Virus record (IMG/VR): IMGVR_UViG_3300025132_000243
Span: 1 to 26,446 of that record
DNA length: 26,446 nt
Reading direction: 5' to 3' (one strand)
Origin: a virus
Part shown: one piece after another, positions 1 to 22,644 of the stretch
How positions within the stretch are numbered: position 1 is the stretch's first letter
How the letters are laid out: each line of letters begins with the position of its first letter
Translations under genes and position numbers: made by a program
The notes under the pieces: model-generated
Database searches by the model: none
What the model was told of the DNA's origin: nothing
Seen by the model: the letters and a program-made list of their open reading frames with translations, nothing else

Positions 1-826
1 AAATGGTTTTACTTTAGGAGATTATAGTGGTACTAATGGAAATACTGTTAATCATGTAGCTTGGAATTGGAAAGCTGGAACATCATTTACAAATGATGCA
101 AGTTCTACAAGTATTGGTGATATTGATAGTGCTGGACGTGTAAGCACTGATGCTGGGATTAGTCTTTGTACTTGGACAGGAAATGGCTCAAACTCACAAA
201 CAGTTAAACATGGTTTGTCAACAGCACCAGAACTAATAATATTAAAAGCAAGAGGTCAAGGTACTTATGGATGGGTAACTTATGATGCTATTAATGGAGC
301 TGGAAAATATTTGACATTAAATAATACTCATGGAGCTGTATCGGATACAGGAATGTGGTCAAACACAGCACCGACTTCATCTGTGTTTTCATTATCTAAT
401 GGTGGTAATACAGTAGCTACAAATCCAAATACTATTACAATGATGGCTTGGTGTTTTCATAGTGTCAAAGGTTACAGTAAAATAGGAAGTTTTACTGGCA
501 ACGGTTCAGCAAGTGATGGTCCGTATGTTCATCTGGGTTTTAGACCAGCTTGGGTTATGATTAAAAGAAGTGGTGGTACAGGCGGTTGGGAAATTTATGA
601 TTCAAAAAGAGATGGTTTTAATCCTCAAGTTCATGGTTTAACTGCAAATACAAATAATGCAGAAGATAATACAGATGATTTAGTAGACATACTTTCAAAT
701 GGTTTTAAAATTAGACACGACGGCTCTGGTCTAAATGCTAGTAATGGAACATACATCTACGCAGCATTTGCAGAAGAACCTTTAGTAGCTAACGTAGGAA
801 ACGGTATACCGGCAACAGCAAGATAA
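1..826 (+). CDS. DUF7483-like tail fibre/adhesin protein (5' end missing)
   Basis: The frame is open from base 2 to the TAA at 824-826, so this is the C-terminal ~274 residues of a gene that begins outside the window. An in-frame TTG at 215 is not a credible start because homologous sequence continues upstream of it. The product is homologous over its visible length to the 346-residue protein at 3323-4363. Shared blocks include the WNWKA motif, a GYSK(I/F)GS(F/Y)TGN motif, G(F)(R/K)PAW followed by a basic residue, and a C-terminal AxNGTYIYxxFAEEPLV-type end. I recognise this as the DUF7483-like repeat family found in marine phage tail fibre loci; the fibre or host-adhesion role is inferred from location and family. 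It is Gly, Asn, Ser and Thr rich with no signal peptide. The next gene starts two bases after the stop. Confidence 0.8.
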   Translation, partial: NGFTLGDYSGTNGNTVNHVAWNWKAGTSFTNDASSTSIGDIDSAGRVSTDAGISLCTWTGNGSNSQTVKHGLSTAPELIILKARGQGTYGWVTYDAINGAGKYLTLNNTHGAVSDTGMWSNTAPTSSVFSLSNGGNTVATNPNTITMMAWCFHSVKGYSKIGSFTGNGSASDGPYVHLGFRPAWVMIKRSGGTGGWEIYDSKRDGFNPQVHGLTANTNNAEDNTDDLVDILSNGFKIRHDGSGLNASNGTYIYAAFAEEPLVANVGNGIPATAR

Positions 827-828
827 TT

Positions 829-2004
829 ATGAGTAGTATATTAAAAGTAGACACGATACAGGACCAAAACGGTAATCTGATCATCAGTAAAGATTCTGGT
901 GGTGGAGGATTTCTTAGTCCGTATGCATCATCATCTGCTCCAATAGTATATACAGTTACTGTAGCTAGTAAAACTGCAGCTCACCCTTACAATGGTGTTG
1001 GTAGTTCTAATGCATATTTTATAAATGGTATTGAAGCACCGATTATAGAATTAAAAGGTAATGACACAGCAAAACCTTATTACTATAAGTTTGATCAATC
1101 AGATGCAACCAACTCTGGACACCCAATAAGATTTTATGTTGATGCTGCTAAGACAACAGAATTTACGACTGGAGTAACTAACACAGGTAGTTCACCTGCA
1201 CCAGGAAACTCAGGTGCACACACAACTATTGCTGTAGATAAGGATACACCTAGTATTTTATATTATCAGTGTTCATCACACGCACACATGGGTAATCACA
1301 CAATACATAATTCACCAACAATCAACACAGGTGTGTTTTTAAAATTACCTGTATCTGATGGTACAAGTGGTCAGGTAATCTCTACCAATGGATCTGGCAC
1401 ACTATCTTTTTCTAATAGTGTCACGTTTCCAACAATCTCATCTATTAGTCCAGGTGTTATAGAAAACACACAAACAGCTGTAACAATTACAGGTACAAAT
1501 TTTAAAGATAGTTCTACACCACCTTTCGTTGATGCGATCAATGCATCTACTGGTGCAATTATAACAGCAGACTCAGTATCATTTACAAATGCAACAACTG
1601 TTGTTGCAACATTTACTATATCTGTAGATGGTACATATTTTTTAAGACTAGAAAATAATGATGGTATCGCAACCAGATCAGGAACGGCTTTACTTACTGT
1701 ATCTGATGCACCTGCGTGGACAACATCTGCAGGAAGTTTAGGAACAATACAAAATGGCGGATCTATCAGCTTTACAGTAGCAGCTACAAATGCTACAAGT
1801 TTTGCAGTACAATCTGGATCACTTCCAGGTGGTGCAAGTTTGAATACAAGCACTGGTGCAATCACTGGAACTGAGTCAGGGTCAACACAGACTACCACGT
1901 ATACGTTTACCGTTAGGGCAACGGATGCGCAGGGCCAGACGGCAGACCGACAGTTTACTATCACTATAAACCATGGTGCAACAGGTTCAGGAGGATTTAA
2001 TTAA
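829..2004 (+). CDS. Tail fibre-like protein with cupredoxin-like domain and two Ig-like domains
   Basis: 391 residues. The N-terminus (MSSILKVDTIQDQNGN) is a recurring start of marine phage fibre proteins and is probably the virion-attachment end. Residues ~38-165 look like a small beta-sandwich with type-1 copper ligands in order: His98 (SGHPIRF), Cys148, His151 and Met154 (YYQCSSHAHMG). The C-x2-H-x2-M spacing matches the amicyanin metal loop. Residues ~200-290 resemble an IPT/TIG Ig-like domain (PTISSISPGVIENTQTAVTI start). Residues ~292-385 resemble a putative-Ig (He_PIG) domain with the SLPGGASLNTSTGAITG signature. No enzyme activity is claimed: the copper site is an inference from ligand spacing, and the fibre role comes from context. 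The gene ends in TAATG, overlapping the next start by one base. Codon choice in the last Ig-like domain (1890-1960) is more GC-rich than its surroundings. Confidence 0.8.
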   Translation: MSSILKVDTIQDQNGNLIISKDSGGGGFLSPYASSSAPIVYTVTVASKTAAHPYNGVGSSNAYFINGIEAPIIELKGNDTAKPYYYKFDQSDATNSGHPIRFYVDAAKTTEFTTGVTNTGSSPAPGNSGAHTTIAVDKDTPSILYYQCSSHAHMGNHTIHNSPTINTGVFLKLPVSDGTSGQVISTNGSGTLSFSNSVTFPTISSISPGVIENTQTAVTITGTNFKDSSTPPFVDAINASTGAIITADSVSFTNATTVVATFTISVDGTYFLRLENNDGIATRSGTALLTVSDAPAWTTSAGSLGTIQNGGSISFTVAATNATSFAVQSGSLPGGASLNTSTGAITGTESGSTQTTTYTFTVRATDAQGQTADRQFTITINHGATGSGGFN

Positions 2005-3323
2005 TGGCTAATACTTACGCATCTTTAACTTTACCAAATACACATGGTTCAGTGTATAAATGGACATACTCTTTTTGGGTAAAGAGGGGTACTTTGGGAT
2101 CAAACCAATGCATGGCGGCAGCAAGATATAGTGGCACTTATAGTAGCCAGATTAGATTTACTAGTAATGATAGTTTAGAGATACATGATTACAGAACCTC
2201 TTATTTTTTACAGAAAATAACTACTAGAAAATTTAGGGACACCTCGAATTGGTATCACATAGTTATAGCAAATGATAATAGTGTTTCTTCCCCAGATTGT
2301 AAAATCTATGTTAATGGAGTTGAGGAAACTGATTTTTCTACTGATAATGAATATTCACAAAATCAAACTACCTCATTTAATAATGCTTATCCTAATTACA
2401 TTGGTCAAAAAGGTTCAGGTGCCGATTATTTTGATGGCTACCTGTCACATTTTCATTTTATAGATGGCACAGCTTATACTGCTTCAACTTTTGGTTCTAC
2501 AGATAGTACAACTGGAGAATGGAGAATAAATGTTTCTCCTAGTGTAACTTATGGAAGTAATGGTTTCTTTTTATTAAAAGATGGAAATTCACTAACAGAC
2601 CAATCTCCTAATACAAATAACTTTACTTTAGGCGGTGGTACAATTACAGATGTAAAAGATAATCCATCAATGGTAATGGCCACAATGAACCCTTTATACA
2701 AGTATTCAGCTTCAATGACTTATTCAAATGGTAATTTAAGTTTGACAGGAACTGGTTCTAGTTGGCAAGGTGCAAATGCTACTTTAGGTATAACAAGTGG
2801 AAAATATTATTTTGAAACTAAATTTACAGGCTCAAATAATAATAATTGGTATATAGGTTTTGGTGGTCTTGACGACTATGCTTTAGCATATCCATATAGA
2901 AATGGTGTTTTATTTTATAATAATGATGGTGGAGAAATTAGGGTAGCAGAAACAGGTTCAGATGGAACAATGACTACTGCTGACTATGGGGTATTTACTC
3001 AAAACGATATTGGTGGTTTTGCAGTAGATTATGATAACTCATTGTTTTCTGTTTATAAAAATAATTCAGCTATTGTTACTAATTTTGATTTTGGTGCTGT
3101 CGGAACTTCATCAACCATAAAGAATGGTAAAACTATAGTACCAATTATTACACATTATGGAACAAGCACTATTGATGTAAATTTTGGCAATGGATATTTC
3201 GGAACAACAGCTATAACTGGAAATTCTGGTAATGGTTATGCAGGTGCAGACGGAAGTTCTAAATTTAATTATCAACCCCCAACAGGCTATAGAGCTTTAT
3301 CAACAAAAGGATTAAATTTATAA
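2004..3323 (+). CDS. LamG-like plus SPRY-like lectin-fold fibre protein
   Basis: 439 residues. Residues ~1-225 read as a concanavalin A/LamG-type jelly roll: YSFWVKRG near the start, then WYHIVIANDNS, KIYVNGVEE, YIGQKG and YFDGYLSHFHFIDG, the usual strand order of Laminin_G_3 domains. Residues ~240-400 look like a SPRY/B30.2-type sandwich, with GKYYFETKF, WYIGFGG, GFAVDYDNSLFSVYKNN and VNFGN blocks. Both folds commonly bind glycans or surface proteins, so a host-surface adhesin role is likely. It sits in a run of fibre-type genes, starts by one-base overlap with the upstream stop, and ends the same way (TAATG at 3321-3325). No Shine-Dalgarno sequence precedes it, which fits coupled translation. 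Domain calls come from motif reading only; the boundaries are approximate. Confidence 0.8.
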   Translation: MANTYASLTLPNTHGSVYKWTYSFWVKRGTLGSNQCMAAARYSGTYSSQIRFTSNDSLEIHDYRTSYFLQKITTRKFRDTSNWYHIVIANDNSVSSPDCKIYVNGVEETDFSTDNEYSQNQTTSFNNAYPNYIGQKGSGADYFDGYLSHFHFIDGTAYTASTFGSTDSTTGEWRINVSPSVTYGSNGFFLLKDGNSLTDQSPNTNNFTLGGGTITDVKDNPSMVMATMNPLYKYSASMTYSNGNLSLTGTGSSWQGANATLGITSGKYYFETKFTGSNNNNWYIGFGGLDDYALAYPYRNGVLFYNNDGGEIRVAETGSDGTMTTADYGVFTQNDIGGFAVDYDNSLFSVYKNNSAIVTNFDFGAVGTSSTIKNGKTIVPIITHYGTSTIDVNFGNGYFGTTAITGNSGNGYAGADGSSKFNYQPPTGYRALSTKGLNL

Positions 3324-4363
3324 TGGCTTATACAACAATTAATAAATCTAACTTACACTTTAATACAATAACATGGTCAGGAACAGGAAGCGGTAAATCA
3401 GAAACAGGTGTAGGATTTCAACCTGATTGGGTTTGGGCTAAAGGAAGAACTGTAGCAGGATATAATCATTATTTAGTAGATTCAGTTAGAGGAAGTACCA
3501 AAGTTATATATTCTAATTTAAATAATGCTGAAGATACAGATAGTAATGGTATATCGTCTTTTGATTCAGATGGTTATACTTTTGGTACAAGTAATGGTTA
3601 TAATAATAGTTCACAAACTTATGTAGGTTGGAACTGGAAAGCAAATGGCTCTGGTTCATCAAACTCTGATGGAAGCATAACATCAACTGTGTCTGCAAAC
3701 ACAACAGCAGGATTTAGTATTGTTAAATGGACAGGTGATGGAAATACAGGAGCAACTATTGGTCATGGTTTAGGTGTTAAACCTAACATGATAATTGCAA
3801 AATCTCATACTCAATCAGGAACAAGTTGGCCAGTATATCATTCTGGTATAGGTGCAACTAAATATTTATCACTTAATAGTACAACATCTGCAACTACATC
3901 AAATACAAGATGGAATAATGCAGAACCAACTAATCAAGTATTTACAGTTGGTAGTTCTGGAGATATCAAAACTAATGGCTATGGTTTTGTAGCTTATTGC
4001 TTTGCAGAAAAAACTGGTTACAGCAAGTTTGGTTCTTATACTGGTAATGCTAGTACAGATGGAACATTTATTTACACTGGATTTAAACCAGCTTGGTTTA
4101 TGTTTAAAAGAACTGATACAGCAGATGGTTGGATGATAATGGATAAACACAGAAATCCTACTAATGTTGTAGATAAAAGACTTGAAGCAGATTCTAATGG
4201 TACTGAATATACTGGTGCTGATTGGTTTGATTTTGTATCAAATGGAGTAAAAATTAGAAACAGTAGTGGTGGAATTAATGCATCTGGTGGTACATATATC
4301 TACATGACATTTGCAGAAGCACCTTTAGTAGGAACTAATAACGTACCATGTAACGCGAAGTAA
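3323..4363 (+). CDS. DUF7483-like tail fibre/adhesin protein
   Basis: 346 residues, full length. It contains three internal units with the same skeleton: a 'GF/GL-x-P-x-W/M-(V/I)-x-A/F-K' strand (GFQPDWVWAKG, GLGVKPNMIIAKS, GFKPAWFMFKR) followed by a D-x-x-R or equivalent and a later NG-(Y/V/F) strand. This suggests a protein built of repeated beta-sandwich modules. It is paralogous to the truncated protein at the left window edge, sharing WNWKA, TGYSKFGSYTGNAS and the C-terminal GTYIY-x-FAEAPLV motif. The DUF7483-like name is my recognition of the family and its function is unknown; fibre or adhesin is inferred from the flanking lectin-like genes. The start codon overlaps the preceding TAA by one base. 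There is no signal peptide and no transmembrane segment. Confidence 0.8.
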   Translation: MAYTTINKSNLHFNTITWSGTGSGKSETGVGFQPDWVWAKGRTVAGYNHYLVDSVRGSTKVIYSNLNNAEDTDSNGISSFDSDGYTFGTSNGYNNSSQTYVGWNWKANGSGSSNSDGSITSTVSANTTAGFSIVKWTGDGNTGATIGHGLGVKPNMIIAKSHTQSGTSWPVYHSGIGATKYLSLNSTTSATTSNTRWNNAEPTNQVFTVGSSGDIKTNGYGFVAYCFAEKTGYSKFGSYTGNASTDGTFIYTGFKPAWFMFKRTDTADGWMIMDKHRNPTNVVDKRLEADSNGTEYTGADWFDFVSNGVKIRNSSGGINASGGTYIYMTFAEAPLVGTNNVPCNAK

Positions 4364-17729: not shown

Positions 17730-17801
17730 TACCCAAAGCAGACACATAACAAGACTAATCCATAATCCCATTCTTATAACTACACCTGGTCTTAGATCCA
17801 T
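17721..17801 (-). CDS. 26-residue membrane micropeptide candidate
   Basis: On the reverse strand an ATG at 17801 overlaps the last codons of the helicase gene in another frame. The frame runs 26 codons to TAG at 17723-17721, crossing the tail of the M15 gene antisense. The peptide is MDLRPGVVIRMGLWISLVMC followed by LLWVLN: a basic N-terminus and one long hydrophobic span. It accounts for the whole gap between the two convergent genes. A single-span shape and start overlap with the helicase suggest a real coupled small gene, but chance cannot be excluded. No Shine-Dalgarno match beyond GAGGAG about 13 bases upstream. Confidence 0.35.
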   Translation of the reverse strand: MDLRPGVVIRMGLWISLVMCLLWVLN

Positions 17802-19225
17802 TCTTTTAACTCCTCTCCCATTATCTGCGTTGCGATATTAACTTTTTTACGTAAGGCTTTTACTATTCTAGTATCAACAGTATTCTCACATATTATATCT
17901 ATATATGTCATAGGTCTTTCTTGGCCTATACGATCTATCCTAGCCTCTGATTGCTGTCTTTTCTCAAGATCATAACCGTTAGAATAATATATCATGGTAC
18001 TAGCAGCTGTAAGTGTAATACCATAGCCACCAGTCTGGGTGGTTCCTATAAAAAATCTTACCGAAGAATCAGGGTCCTGGAACTTTTGTATATTCTTTTG
18101 TCTATCTTCTTGTGGTGTCAGACCATAATAATCTACAAAAGAATCTGCACCATACTCTTTGCTTATGGCCTCGATTATCTTATGAACATCTCTTTGAAAG
18201 TGGGCCCAGATAACAACCTTACCCTCTATCTCATCTAGTAGATTCATCAATTCTGGCAATCTATTTGTGGGTATCTCCTGTATAACACCGTCATCTGCAG
18301 TAAAATTACCACAAGTTATCTGCTGTAATCTCATAAGTTGGGTCAATACAGTGGCTGTGGTCATCATTTTACCACCAAAACTAGCGAGAGCTAGTCTGCT
18401 CATCTCTTTATATACTTTTGTTTGATCTGGTGTAAGGGTTACTGTACGTTTCATAAACGTTTTCTTAGGTAGATCAAGACACTCATCTTTCAATACCCTA
18501 TAAGAAAATGCTTTTAGTTTTTGTGATAGTTCATCTAGATTCTTATAACCTACAACTATCTGTACAGATCTACCGCTAAAGTTTGCTGTTCTCATCACAG
18601 CATACCTGGTTCTAAATGTGTAGTAAGACTCATGACCCAATAGACCAGGCATCAGGAACTCACATTGTTTGTATAAATCTAGTGGTGATTTGGTTACAGG
18701 TGATCCAGTTAATATTCTATTATATTTGGTAGCCAAACCTAACTGACAAATATTTTTTGTACGTTTAGCCTCTGGGTTTTTTATTGTAGTAGACTCATCA
18801 ATAGCCATTAATGCTCTATGAGAAAATAAAAATTTTTGTGCAAAGTCATAACCCTTCTGCGTAGACAATGCTTCTACATTCATAATTAATATATGTAGGT
18901 CTTCACCTGTTTCAAACAAACCATTTAATGAAGCAGTTTGTTTTTTTGTAATTAGTGGTTGCCATAAAACAGATTTGTAATCTATGTGATCAACAATGTG
19001 TGTAGGTATCTCACCTTCATACCAGTTTTTTACAACACCTTTCGGTGCCACAATTAGAACACCATTAATCTTACCATTATCATAAAGCATAGATATGTTA
19101 TCTATCAATACTTTAGATTTACCTGTACCCATCTCCATAAAATATGCAAAGTATGGTTTATCCCATGACATCTCTAATGCTTTGATCTGATGATCATATG
19201 GCTTAGTCTTAAATTTATAATCCAT
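17792..19225 (-). CDS. SNF2-type superfamily 2 DNA helicase/translocase
   Basis: 477 residues on the reverse strand, the only sizeable leftward gene. Motifs appear in order: a Q-type motif near residue 10 (YDHQIKAL), Walker A EMGTGKSK (31-38), motif Ia (VLIVAPKGVVKNW), motif II DEST (143-146) in ALMAIDESTTIKN, motif III LTGSPV (172-177), motif V around 395-409 (TTQTGGYGITLTAAS) and motif VI QSEARIDRIGQ (425-435). SNF2-like phage proteins are ATP-driven DNA translocases involved in replication, recombination or fork handling; the exact role here is not known. It is convergent with the M15 gene and divergent from the replication operon. Its promoter probably lies in the shared 57-bp gap. A purine-rich stretch (AGAAAGAAGA) just upstream of the ATG may act as the ribosome site. 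Confidence 0.92.
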   Translation of the reverse strand: MDYKFKTKPYDHQIKALEMSWDKPYFAYFMEMGTGKSKVLIDNISMLYDNGKINGVLIVAPKGVVKNWYEGEIPTHIVDHIDYKSVLWQPLITKKQTASLNGLFETGEDLHILIMNVEALSTQKGYDFAQKFLFSHRALMAIDESTTIKNPEAKRTKNICQLGLATKYNRILTGSPVTKSPLDLYKQCEFLMPGLLGHESYYTFRTRYAVMRTANFSGRSVQIVVGYKNLDELSQKLKAFSYRVLKDECLDLPKKTFMKRTVTLTPDQTKVYKEMSRLALASFGGKMMTTATVLTQLMRLQQITCGNFTADDGVIQEIPTNRLPELMNLLDEIEGKVVIWAHFQRDVHKIIEAISKEYGADSFVDYYGLTPQEDRQKNIQKFQDPDSSVRFFIGTTQTGGYGITLTAASTMIYYSNGYDLEKRQQSEARIDRIGQERPMTYIDIICENTVDTRIVKALRKKVNIATQIMGEELKEWI

Positions 19226-20941: not shown

Positions 20942-20997
20942 TTCTCTAAGAGAATGAGTGCACAGTGTGGGCCGATTGGGAGACTGAAAGGCCCGCA
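20941..20997 (+). other. Two consecutive RNA hairpins between ssDNA-binding candidate and primase
   Basis: Hairpin 1: ATTCTC (20941-20946) pairs with GAGAAT (20950-20955) around a TAA loop, at the stop codon of the upstream gene. Hairpin 2: TGTGGGCC (20966-20973) pairs with GGCCCGCA (20990-20997), eight pairs with one G-U, loop of 16 bases. Hairpin 2 is GC-rich in an AT-rich genome, and no T-run follows, so it is not an ordinary terminator. It could be a processing or translation-control element, or partly coding if the primase starts at the GTG at 20965. Confidence 0.55.
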
Positions 20998-21006
20998 GCT
21001 ACAGTT

Positions 21007-22644
21007 ATGGAAAAAAGATATATAGAATTTTTTAATGGATATAGGCAGGCCTATGGAGTCGCTGACTTCGAACATCCTGATGCTTATATAGATCATGATA
21101 CAGGTAAAAAGAAACCTGTATACAGATGGAATTACGAAGACCTTACAGATGATATATATCAAGCACATCTTGAGGGTAAACTATCTATAGGTATACAACC
21201 ATGTAATGAAAACTCTGAGGTTAAGTTTGGTGTCATAGATATAGATCCAAAAGACTACGACAATTTTGATAAAAAATTTTACATAGATACAATACAAGAA
21301 TACAAATTACCACTGATACCTGTATCATCTAAAAGTGGTGGACTACATTTATTTTTATTTATGAAAGCTTTTACGAGCGCATCTCTTGTAAAATCTTTTC
21401 TAACAAATCTACTACCAACATTTAAATTAAAACAAGACACAGAAATATTTCCAAAACAAACACAACTAACCAAGGATAATGAGACCGGACAACTGCGTCC
21501 AGGTCAATTTATAAATCTGCCATACCTGGGTGGCAATCATAGGAGAGCCATTAACTCTGATGGCACACAGTTTACACTGGATGAGTTTATGCAGGTAATT
21601 GAAGCAAACCTGACAGACAAAGAAAGACTTACAGATATAACAGACTCAATAGAAAACAAAGACCTTGAAGGTGTGGACGAAGATTTTAAAGATGGTCCAC
21701 CATGTCTAGCAGTATTATCAAAACTCGCAAAAGACCCTAACTTTGATGGCAAAGATAGATTTATGTACAACTACCACGTATTTATGAAGATGAAATTTAC
21801 AGACAACTGGCAACAGAAAGTAAAAAATGCACCAGTCAAATATTTTTCTGGTGATCATGCAAATGCATGGGATGACAAAGTATTGAATGCAAAAGTAAAA
21901 TCTTGGAATAGAAGTACAAAAGGTTATACATGCACACAGAGTCCAATCAGTGATTTCTGTAAAAAAGGTATTTGTGTAAAGAAAAAATATGGAGTCTTGG
22001 CAGGATCAAAAGGTTCTTATCCTGTGCTTACAAATCTTAAGAAGATAGACCTAGATCCAGAACCAGAATATGAATTTGATGTAACAAAACCAGATGGTAT
22101 TGGTACAGCGACAGTACATTGTAGATCTGTAGAACATCTAAATGATCAACGTAAAAGACGTAACTCTATATCAAAAGCTGCAGGATTCCTACCACCATTA
22201 ATTAAAGGTGACCAGGAACAAGCAGTTATGGATACACTGTATGCAACACAAAAGATAGTACATCCACCTATTGGCACATCACCAAAAGAAAAATTACATG
22301 ATGTGTTACACGCAAAAATAAATGGACCTAGAGCTACAAGTGATGCAGCATTCAAAACAGGTTCTGTATTGATAGAGAATGATTATGCATATTTTAAATT
22401 TGATAAATTTTTTGACAAACTTAGGTCTAAGAATTGGAAATACACTGAAGATAAGACTGGTCGTATAATGCAGGTTACATACAAGGATTGTGAGATAGAG
22501 TTTTTAGAACAGAAAAGATATCCGTCAAAAGAAACCGGTAAATATAATTCGTCTACAAAAAATGTTGTGCAGATAAATATTAAATCGTTTGAAGAGGTAC
22601 CTATACATCATACAAAAATAAAACATAAAACGGAGATAATGTGA
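21007..22644 (+). CDS. Archaeo-eukaryotic-type primase (TOTE/PrimPol-like) with Cys-rich C-terminal region
   Basis: 545 residues from ATG 21007; a GTG at 20965 would add 14 residues but puts the start inside a hairpin, so ATG is slightly favoured. No Shine-Dalgarno sequence is clear for either. Numbering here is from ATG. The catalytic half has RYIEFFNGYRQAYG, then FGVIDIDP with the metal-binding Asp78-x-Asp80, SKSGGLHLFLF with His114 (the conserved sGGxH), a TEIFPKQ block at ~145-151 and GQFINLPYLGG at ~166-176. This is the archaeo-eukaryotic primase layout. It makes primers for the polymerase encoded downstream. The C-terminal region has four cysteines at ~233 (GPPC), 309, 318 and 323 (YTC-x8-C-x4-C), reminiscent of the iron-sulphur region of primase large subunit; this is speculative. 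Its end overlaps the UvrD gene by four bases (GTGA). Confidence 0.8.
   Translation: MEKRYIEFFNGYRQAYGVADFEHPDAYIDHDTGKKKPVYRWNYEDLTDDIYQAHLEGKLSIGIQPCNENSEVKFGVIDIDPKDYDNFDKKFYIDTIQEYKLPLIPVSSKSGGLHLFLFMKAFTSASLVKSFLTNLLPTFKLKQDTEIFPKQTQLTKDNETGQLRPGQFINLPYLGGNHRRAINSDGTQFTLDEFMQVIEANLTDKERLTDITDSIENKDLEGVDEDFKDGPPCLAVLSKLAKDPNFDGKDRFMYNYHVFMKMKFTDNWQQKVKNAPVKYFSGDHANAWDDKVLNAKVKSWNRSTKGYTCTQSPISDFCKKGICVKKKYGVLAGSKGSYPVLTNLKKIDLDPEPEYEFDVTKPDGIGTATVHCRSVEHLNDQRKRRNSISKAAGFLPPLIKGDQEQAVMDTLYATQKIVHPPIGTSPKEKLHDVLHAKINGPRATSDAAFKTGSVLIENDYAYFKFDKFFDKLRSKNWKYTEDKTGRIMQVTYKDCEIEFLEQKRYPSKETGKYNSSTKNVVQINIKSFEEVPIHHTKIKHKTEIM

Follow-up and report, generated by a model that had tools for sequence, protein, structure and literature searches.

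Type-1 copper sites combine a His-Cys-His set with a Met inside a cupredoxin fold, and electron transfer is the typical role of those with a Met ligand. The plastocyanin/azurin family (PF00127) consists of small soluble electron carriers that share the ligand order His...Cys-x2-His-x(2-4)-Met. In amicyanin the ligand loop is C-x2-H-x2-M and the N-terminal ligand is followed by Asn. Rusticyanin has a longer ligand loop, with H143 and M148 as ligands according to entry titles. Metal on phage adsorption fibres is known from the iron-binding HxH sites of the T4 gp37 type, which have also been proposed for Alteromonas phage R22Y, and from the Ferrojan Horse idea (PMC11705849).

Here we analyse a fibre-type protein encoded in a 26,446-nucleotide stretch of viral DNA (IMG/VR record IMGVR_UViG_3300025132_000243), which we call the window. 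The protein probably carries a real type-1 copper cupredoxin module within a phage adsorption fibre, with His98, Cys148 and His151 as ligands and Met154 in the axial position. The domain shares the ligand order of PF00127, and all four ligands fall into profile register with that family. However, it stays below the family cut-off, has no Asn after the first His and has longer loops. It is also part of a phage fibre instead of a soluble carrier. With amicyanin it shares the C-x2-H-x2-M loop but not the His-Asn pair, which is H98-P99 here. Like the T4 and Ferrojan Horse systems it would place a metal on the adsorption fibre, but metal, ligands and fold differ, since the predicted site is formed by Cys, His, His and Met of a single chain.

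The fold and the site type are already known. Their location on phage fibres appears to be undescribed in the open-licence literature, where we found no description of a cupredoxin or blue copper protein on phage fibres. The same genes or the same domain occur in PHROG 30742 and PHROG 18673, which are described merely as tail fiber, with no metal site.

The fibre gene and its candidate ligands

The fibre-type protein of 391 amino acids is encoded at 829..2004; this gene, its parts and its named neighbours lie on the + strand. Its match to PHROG 30742 (tail fiber, E=3e-27) and its place among fibre genes identify it as a phage tail fibre protein. The neighbours belong to LamG_3, DUF7483 and tail-fibre families or are further fibre-type genes. 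Upstream lies a fibre-like ORF of 203 amino acids that starts from TTG (215..826). Its reading frame may extend upstream past the edge of the window, and by eye it resembles the DUF7483 protein at 3323-4363. Downstream (2004..4363) are a LamG_3 lectin-like protein (PF13385, E=3e-14) and the DUF7483 tail-fibre protein (PF24299, E=1e-124), in a stretch that matches PHROG 27411, 19943 and 24898. Judged by the DNA polymerase and a 1280-residue structural protein, the nearest isolates are Pelagibacter phage HTVC027P and phage 023Pt_psg01. Elsewhere in the window, a protein with an AEP-TOTE primase domain (20965-22644; PF22548, E=1e-14) is encoded among phage replication genes. A SNF2-type helicase gene (17792-19225) lies on the - strand, opposite to all other genes that can be recognised in the window.

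The protein is modular. Its N-terminal region (829..921) starts with MSSILKVDTIQDQNGNLIISK, is kept in full-length relatives, which exist for the whole 391-residue protein, and has low pLDDT in the monomer model. It is a probable virion attachment segment. The cupredoxin-like domain follows at 940..1308 (residues ~38-160). Behind it, the full-length model shows the strands of a first Ig-like beta-domain (1432..1701, residues ~202-291), whose TIG/IPT type we infer by eye. A second Ig domain is a match to He_PIG (PF05345; 1735..1971, residues 303-381; E=2.2e-13, 50.9 bits against a cut-off of 24), and a conserved GG(Q)FN motif ends the protein. The full-length model (pLDDT 78.6) again gives the same strands for the cupredoxin-like domain, with two more beta-domains behind it. 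The module would be an insertion between the N-terminal region of the fibre and the two Ig domains.

All four candidate ligands lie where the preliminary description of this DNA placed them in the ORF. H98, the candidate N-terminal ligand (1120..1122), is part of SGHPIRFYV. The other three lie in the loop LYYQCSSHAHMGNH: C148, the candidate thiolate ligand (1270..1272), H151, the candidate C-terminal His ligand (1279..1281), and M154, the candidate axial ligand (1288..1290). C148 is the only Cys of the protein, and M154 is the only Met besides the start. Shuffling the fibre protein yields C-x2-H-x2-M in 0.015% of cases, and translating the whole window in all six frames gives no occurrence other than the one at 1270. 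Its spacing, C148-SS-H151-AH-M154, does equal that of the amicyanin ligand loop, as had been proposed. The G-H-P-x-x-F context of H98 had also been presented as the one expected of a cupredoxin. This part does not hold: the plastocyanins that we examined have Asn after the His, where most homologues of the fibre domain have Pro (P99 here).

Predicted fold and ligand register

Residues ~38-160 very probably adopt a cupredoxin fold, as judged from structure prediction and profile comparison. We modelled residues 30-175 with AlphaFold2 together with 37 aligned relatives. The model is a greek-key β-sandwich spanning residues ~38-160 (mean pLDDT 90.6, pTM 0.86). A strand begins just after H98, another strand ends at C148, as it does in cupredoxins, and the loop that leads to the following strand contains H151 and M154. 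Cupredoxins show this same arrangement.

The structural neighbours agree with such a fold, which the preliminary description had suggested comparing with cupredoxins. Among the PDB matches listed by Foldseek, essentially all are cupredoxin-fold proteins: rusticyanin, copper nitrite reductases (CuNIR), laccases, CueO and nitrosocyanin, as well as the related SufI and factors V/VIII. None of the PDB matches to the domain model has E<=0.001. The best VIA-align result (99 residues, rmsd 2.7) is to residues 26-136 of 6tfd_A, the N-terminal domain of a Hyphomicrobium nitrite reductase, and its Z of 8.1 is at the level where the tool warns of a mere common arrangement. The purple cupredoxin of Nitrosopumilus follows with Z 6.7 (93 residues, rmsd 2.8). 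The alignment to rusticyanin (2cal) ends with model position 132 paired to residue 155, an offset that would put M154 on Met148 provided that no gap follows. Sequence identity to the best fold matches, which are rusticyanin, the Hyphomicrobium CuNIR N-terminal domain and two-domain laccases, is low (about 7-17%). The label amicyanin-like, used in the preliminary description, suits the ligand loop but not the fold, for which these three are closer.

The domain also resembles BFVD models of proteins from giant viruses, namely small 'beta-sandwich proteins' of the pithovirus-like and marseillevirus-like kinds (A0A481Z6J5, A0A481Z7Q7 and A0A481YWX9; Foldseek E ~1e-8 to 1e-6).

Profile comparison places the type-1 ligand order on homologous positions, as far as sequence alignment can tell. 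We compared profiles of the domain with an alignment of plastocyanins from cyanobacterial genomes using hhalign. The diverse profile A3 pairs H98 with the first His, C148 with the Cys, H151 with the second His and M154 with the Met. The wider profile A5 also aligns all four ligands, with a score of 30.94 and a probability of 53%. In a control with 200 column-shuffled plastocyanin alignments, scores averaged 10.6 and reached at most 21.9. The full-length register needs the diverse profiles A3 or A5; profiles of near relatives (A2, m2) align with plastocyanin in the loop alone. Just the loop also aligns with three amicyanin-like sequences (probability 7.6%), which are too few for a profile.

Database searches point the same way at low scores. 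A search of PDB sequences with A5 gives eight weak matches, all with E>0.01, six of which are CuNIR, multicopper oxidase or pseudoazurin. The A2 profile finds a weak pseudoazurin match, and a search of PDB sequences with the single fibre protein finds no cupredoxins. On the domain, no Pfam family and no curated cupredoxin family exceeds its cut-off. PF00127, which includes amicyanin, is not listed for the fibre protein; among 37 relatives it is found once, at E=0.033. The closest Pfam family is the plant-named PF25489 (At5g54830-like domain), which covers most of the domain at E=4e-4 and scores 20.8 bits where the cut-off is 27; weak matches to it also occur in 28 of the 37 relatives. A search of 150 genomes for PF25489 gave no signal, and its controls gave none either. 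The lines of evidence for the ligand register are individually weak and consistent with each other.

Conservation and loss of the ligands

If the four residues form one site, they should be kept together and lost together. In alignment A3, whose 31 sequences reach down to 33% identity, invariance is confined to Y86, F88, H98, Y146, C148, H151 and M154. The Y86-x-F88 strand (1084..1092) is invariant in A5 too, and invariant or nearly so across the family; H98, H151 and M154 are likewise invariant in both alignments, and H98 and M154 also in the collected sets. The codons of H98, C148 and H151 vary synonymously while the amino acid stays constant. Hence selection acts on the protein.

Motif-driven retrieval could create such a pattern by itself. 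We therefore retrieved homologues with N-terminal stretches only, to avoid selecting for the motif: the queries from the window and from Bellamy end before H98, and the query from S-B68 takes in the first His and leaves out the loop. All four ligands are kept in 63 of 63, 56 of 59 and 77 of 77 homologues, respectively, which is 196 of 199 distinct sequences. C148 and H151 do not vary freely; free variation would have spoken against a site. The profile used to collect the domains includes the ligands, and degenerate copies may therefore be underrepresented.

The three exceptions (L329, L340 and L347) have lost C148 and H151 jointly, as C148S and H151D in the sequence YQSDNDVLMG. H98 and M154 are still present in these copies (the domain lies near 2480-2830 of L340). 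They are probably metal-less domains and useful natural controls.

Such copies bear on the main rival to a copper site, a metal-free structural role. The domain could be a spacer with a cupredoxin fold that has lost its metal binding, in which the conservation reflects a frozen fold core. Besides the three joint losses, homologues L146-L148 carry C148S alone, and the tandem copies of cyanophages P-HM2 (gp7) and S-MbCM7 place a Cys-less copy beside an intact one, with D where the Cys is expected in the degenerate copy of P-HM2 gp7. Because some copies are without the Cys, or without Cys and His, the fold can serve without metal. Yet in the great majority of distinct copies the ligands belong to the positions that change least, and elsewhere identity drops to ~33%. 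Cys and Met, which are rare in these fibres, are retained precisely at the ligand positions, and the joint loss of Cys and His is what is expected of a joint site. Thus, for the domain at large, we regard the metal-free spacer as unlikely. The tandem pairs of a Cys-less and an intact copy were seen in the giant baseplate protein gp7 at 4704-5441 of L084 (P-HM2 gp7) and at 2674-3441 of L260 (MED4-213).

The conservation pattern also bears on which metal would be bound. The window sequence contains H151-A152-H153, and marine phage fibres have been proposed to carry HxH iron sites (PMC11705849). The H-A-H of SHAHM could accordingly resemble the T4 gp37 tip, with one iron held by three chains. However, homologues have N, Y, H, L, G, Q or other residues at position 153, whereas C148 and M154, which lie outside the HxH, are invariant or nearly so. 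This disfavours a T4-type iron site to the point of being scarcely credible.

A mononuclear site of the same Cys, His, His and Met could instead hold Zn, or Ni or Fe, in the native virion. Zn can occupy cupredoxin sites in vitro. Met is a poor Zn ligand, though, and the ligand set in this fold is that of type-1 copper, which makes another native metal very doubtful. Native copper binding by the domain is the likely alternative, as predicted from the sequences and the model.

Distribution and possible role

The domain is not confined to the window. It occurs in 31 phage records, which are phages of Prochlorococcus, Synechococcus, Methylophilales and Pelagibacter and marine single-cell viruses. 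In IMG/VR, at least 548 stretches encode it. The genes that carry it are tail fibre genes and, in P-HM2, the gene of gp7, a giant baseplate protein, and it is also found in a protein of S-TIM66 and S-TIM5 annotated as virion structural. In distinct complete ORFs, the start of the domain can lie at any point of the first four fifths and is most often in the first half. Proteins with a single Cys form the largest class (88 of 220 distinct complete ORFs). Sequence data and prediction together are the evidence for the fold, the ligand register, the joint conservation and the occurrence in many fibre and virion genes.

What would a copper site do on a fibre? Free copper is very scarce in the cytoplasm. 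Hence the fibre would be made there in its apo form, assembled free of metal and filled outside. Each chain could take up one copper ion outside the cytoplasm, either in seawater once the cell has lysed or at the host envelope. The metal would then lock the loop, and the domain would stiffen or tune the fibre for adsorption, possibly touching components of the host surface. We lean slightly towards such a structural or adsorption role and away from electron transfer.

Redox activity would fit the usual function of type-1 copper with a Met ligand and the photosynthetic cyanobacteria among the hosts. The copper could exchange electrons at the host envelope, with periplasmic redox proteins or surface thiols, and act as a trigger or as a sensor of the environment. 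However, the window contains no partner or redox gene beside the fibre gene, and one domain serves very different hosts in varied fibre architectures. A redox role is improbable.

If the domain binds copper, a redox metal centre belongs to the host-contact machinery of phages that infect some of the most abundant bacteria in the ocean (SAR11, Methylophilales, Prochlorococcus and Synechococcus). These viruses may bear copper on the very part that touches the host. The idea of metal on fibres would gain a defined, mutable single-chain site, and seawater an extra biological carrier of copper. A name could also be given to a widespread fibre domain whose present annotations read just 'tail fiber' or 'hypothetical'. 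A broader proposal is speculative: several marine phage families would share an unrecognised family of virion cupredoxins that obtain copper from the host envelope or from seawater, and the copper state would control adsorption or host recognition. Phages would then belong to the marine copper-ligand pool, in what would be the copper equivalent of the Ferrojan Horse idea.

Bacterial examples are few and are found in repeat-rich proteins of surface type. Two large ones, encoded in marine alphaproteobacterial MAGs (L168, 3700-11073, and L169), each contain two copies of the domain with intact ligands. The module may have come from such cellular proteins or been passed on to them. A match in a SAR11 genome (L165) was rejected as a host gene, as it lies next to phage tail genes and a ferrochelatase of a phage family; the region is probably a phage segment. 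The ferrochelatase-like gene (8001-8579 of L165; PHROG 2954, E=2e-50) adjoins the fibre genes there.
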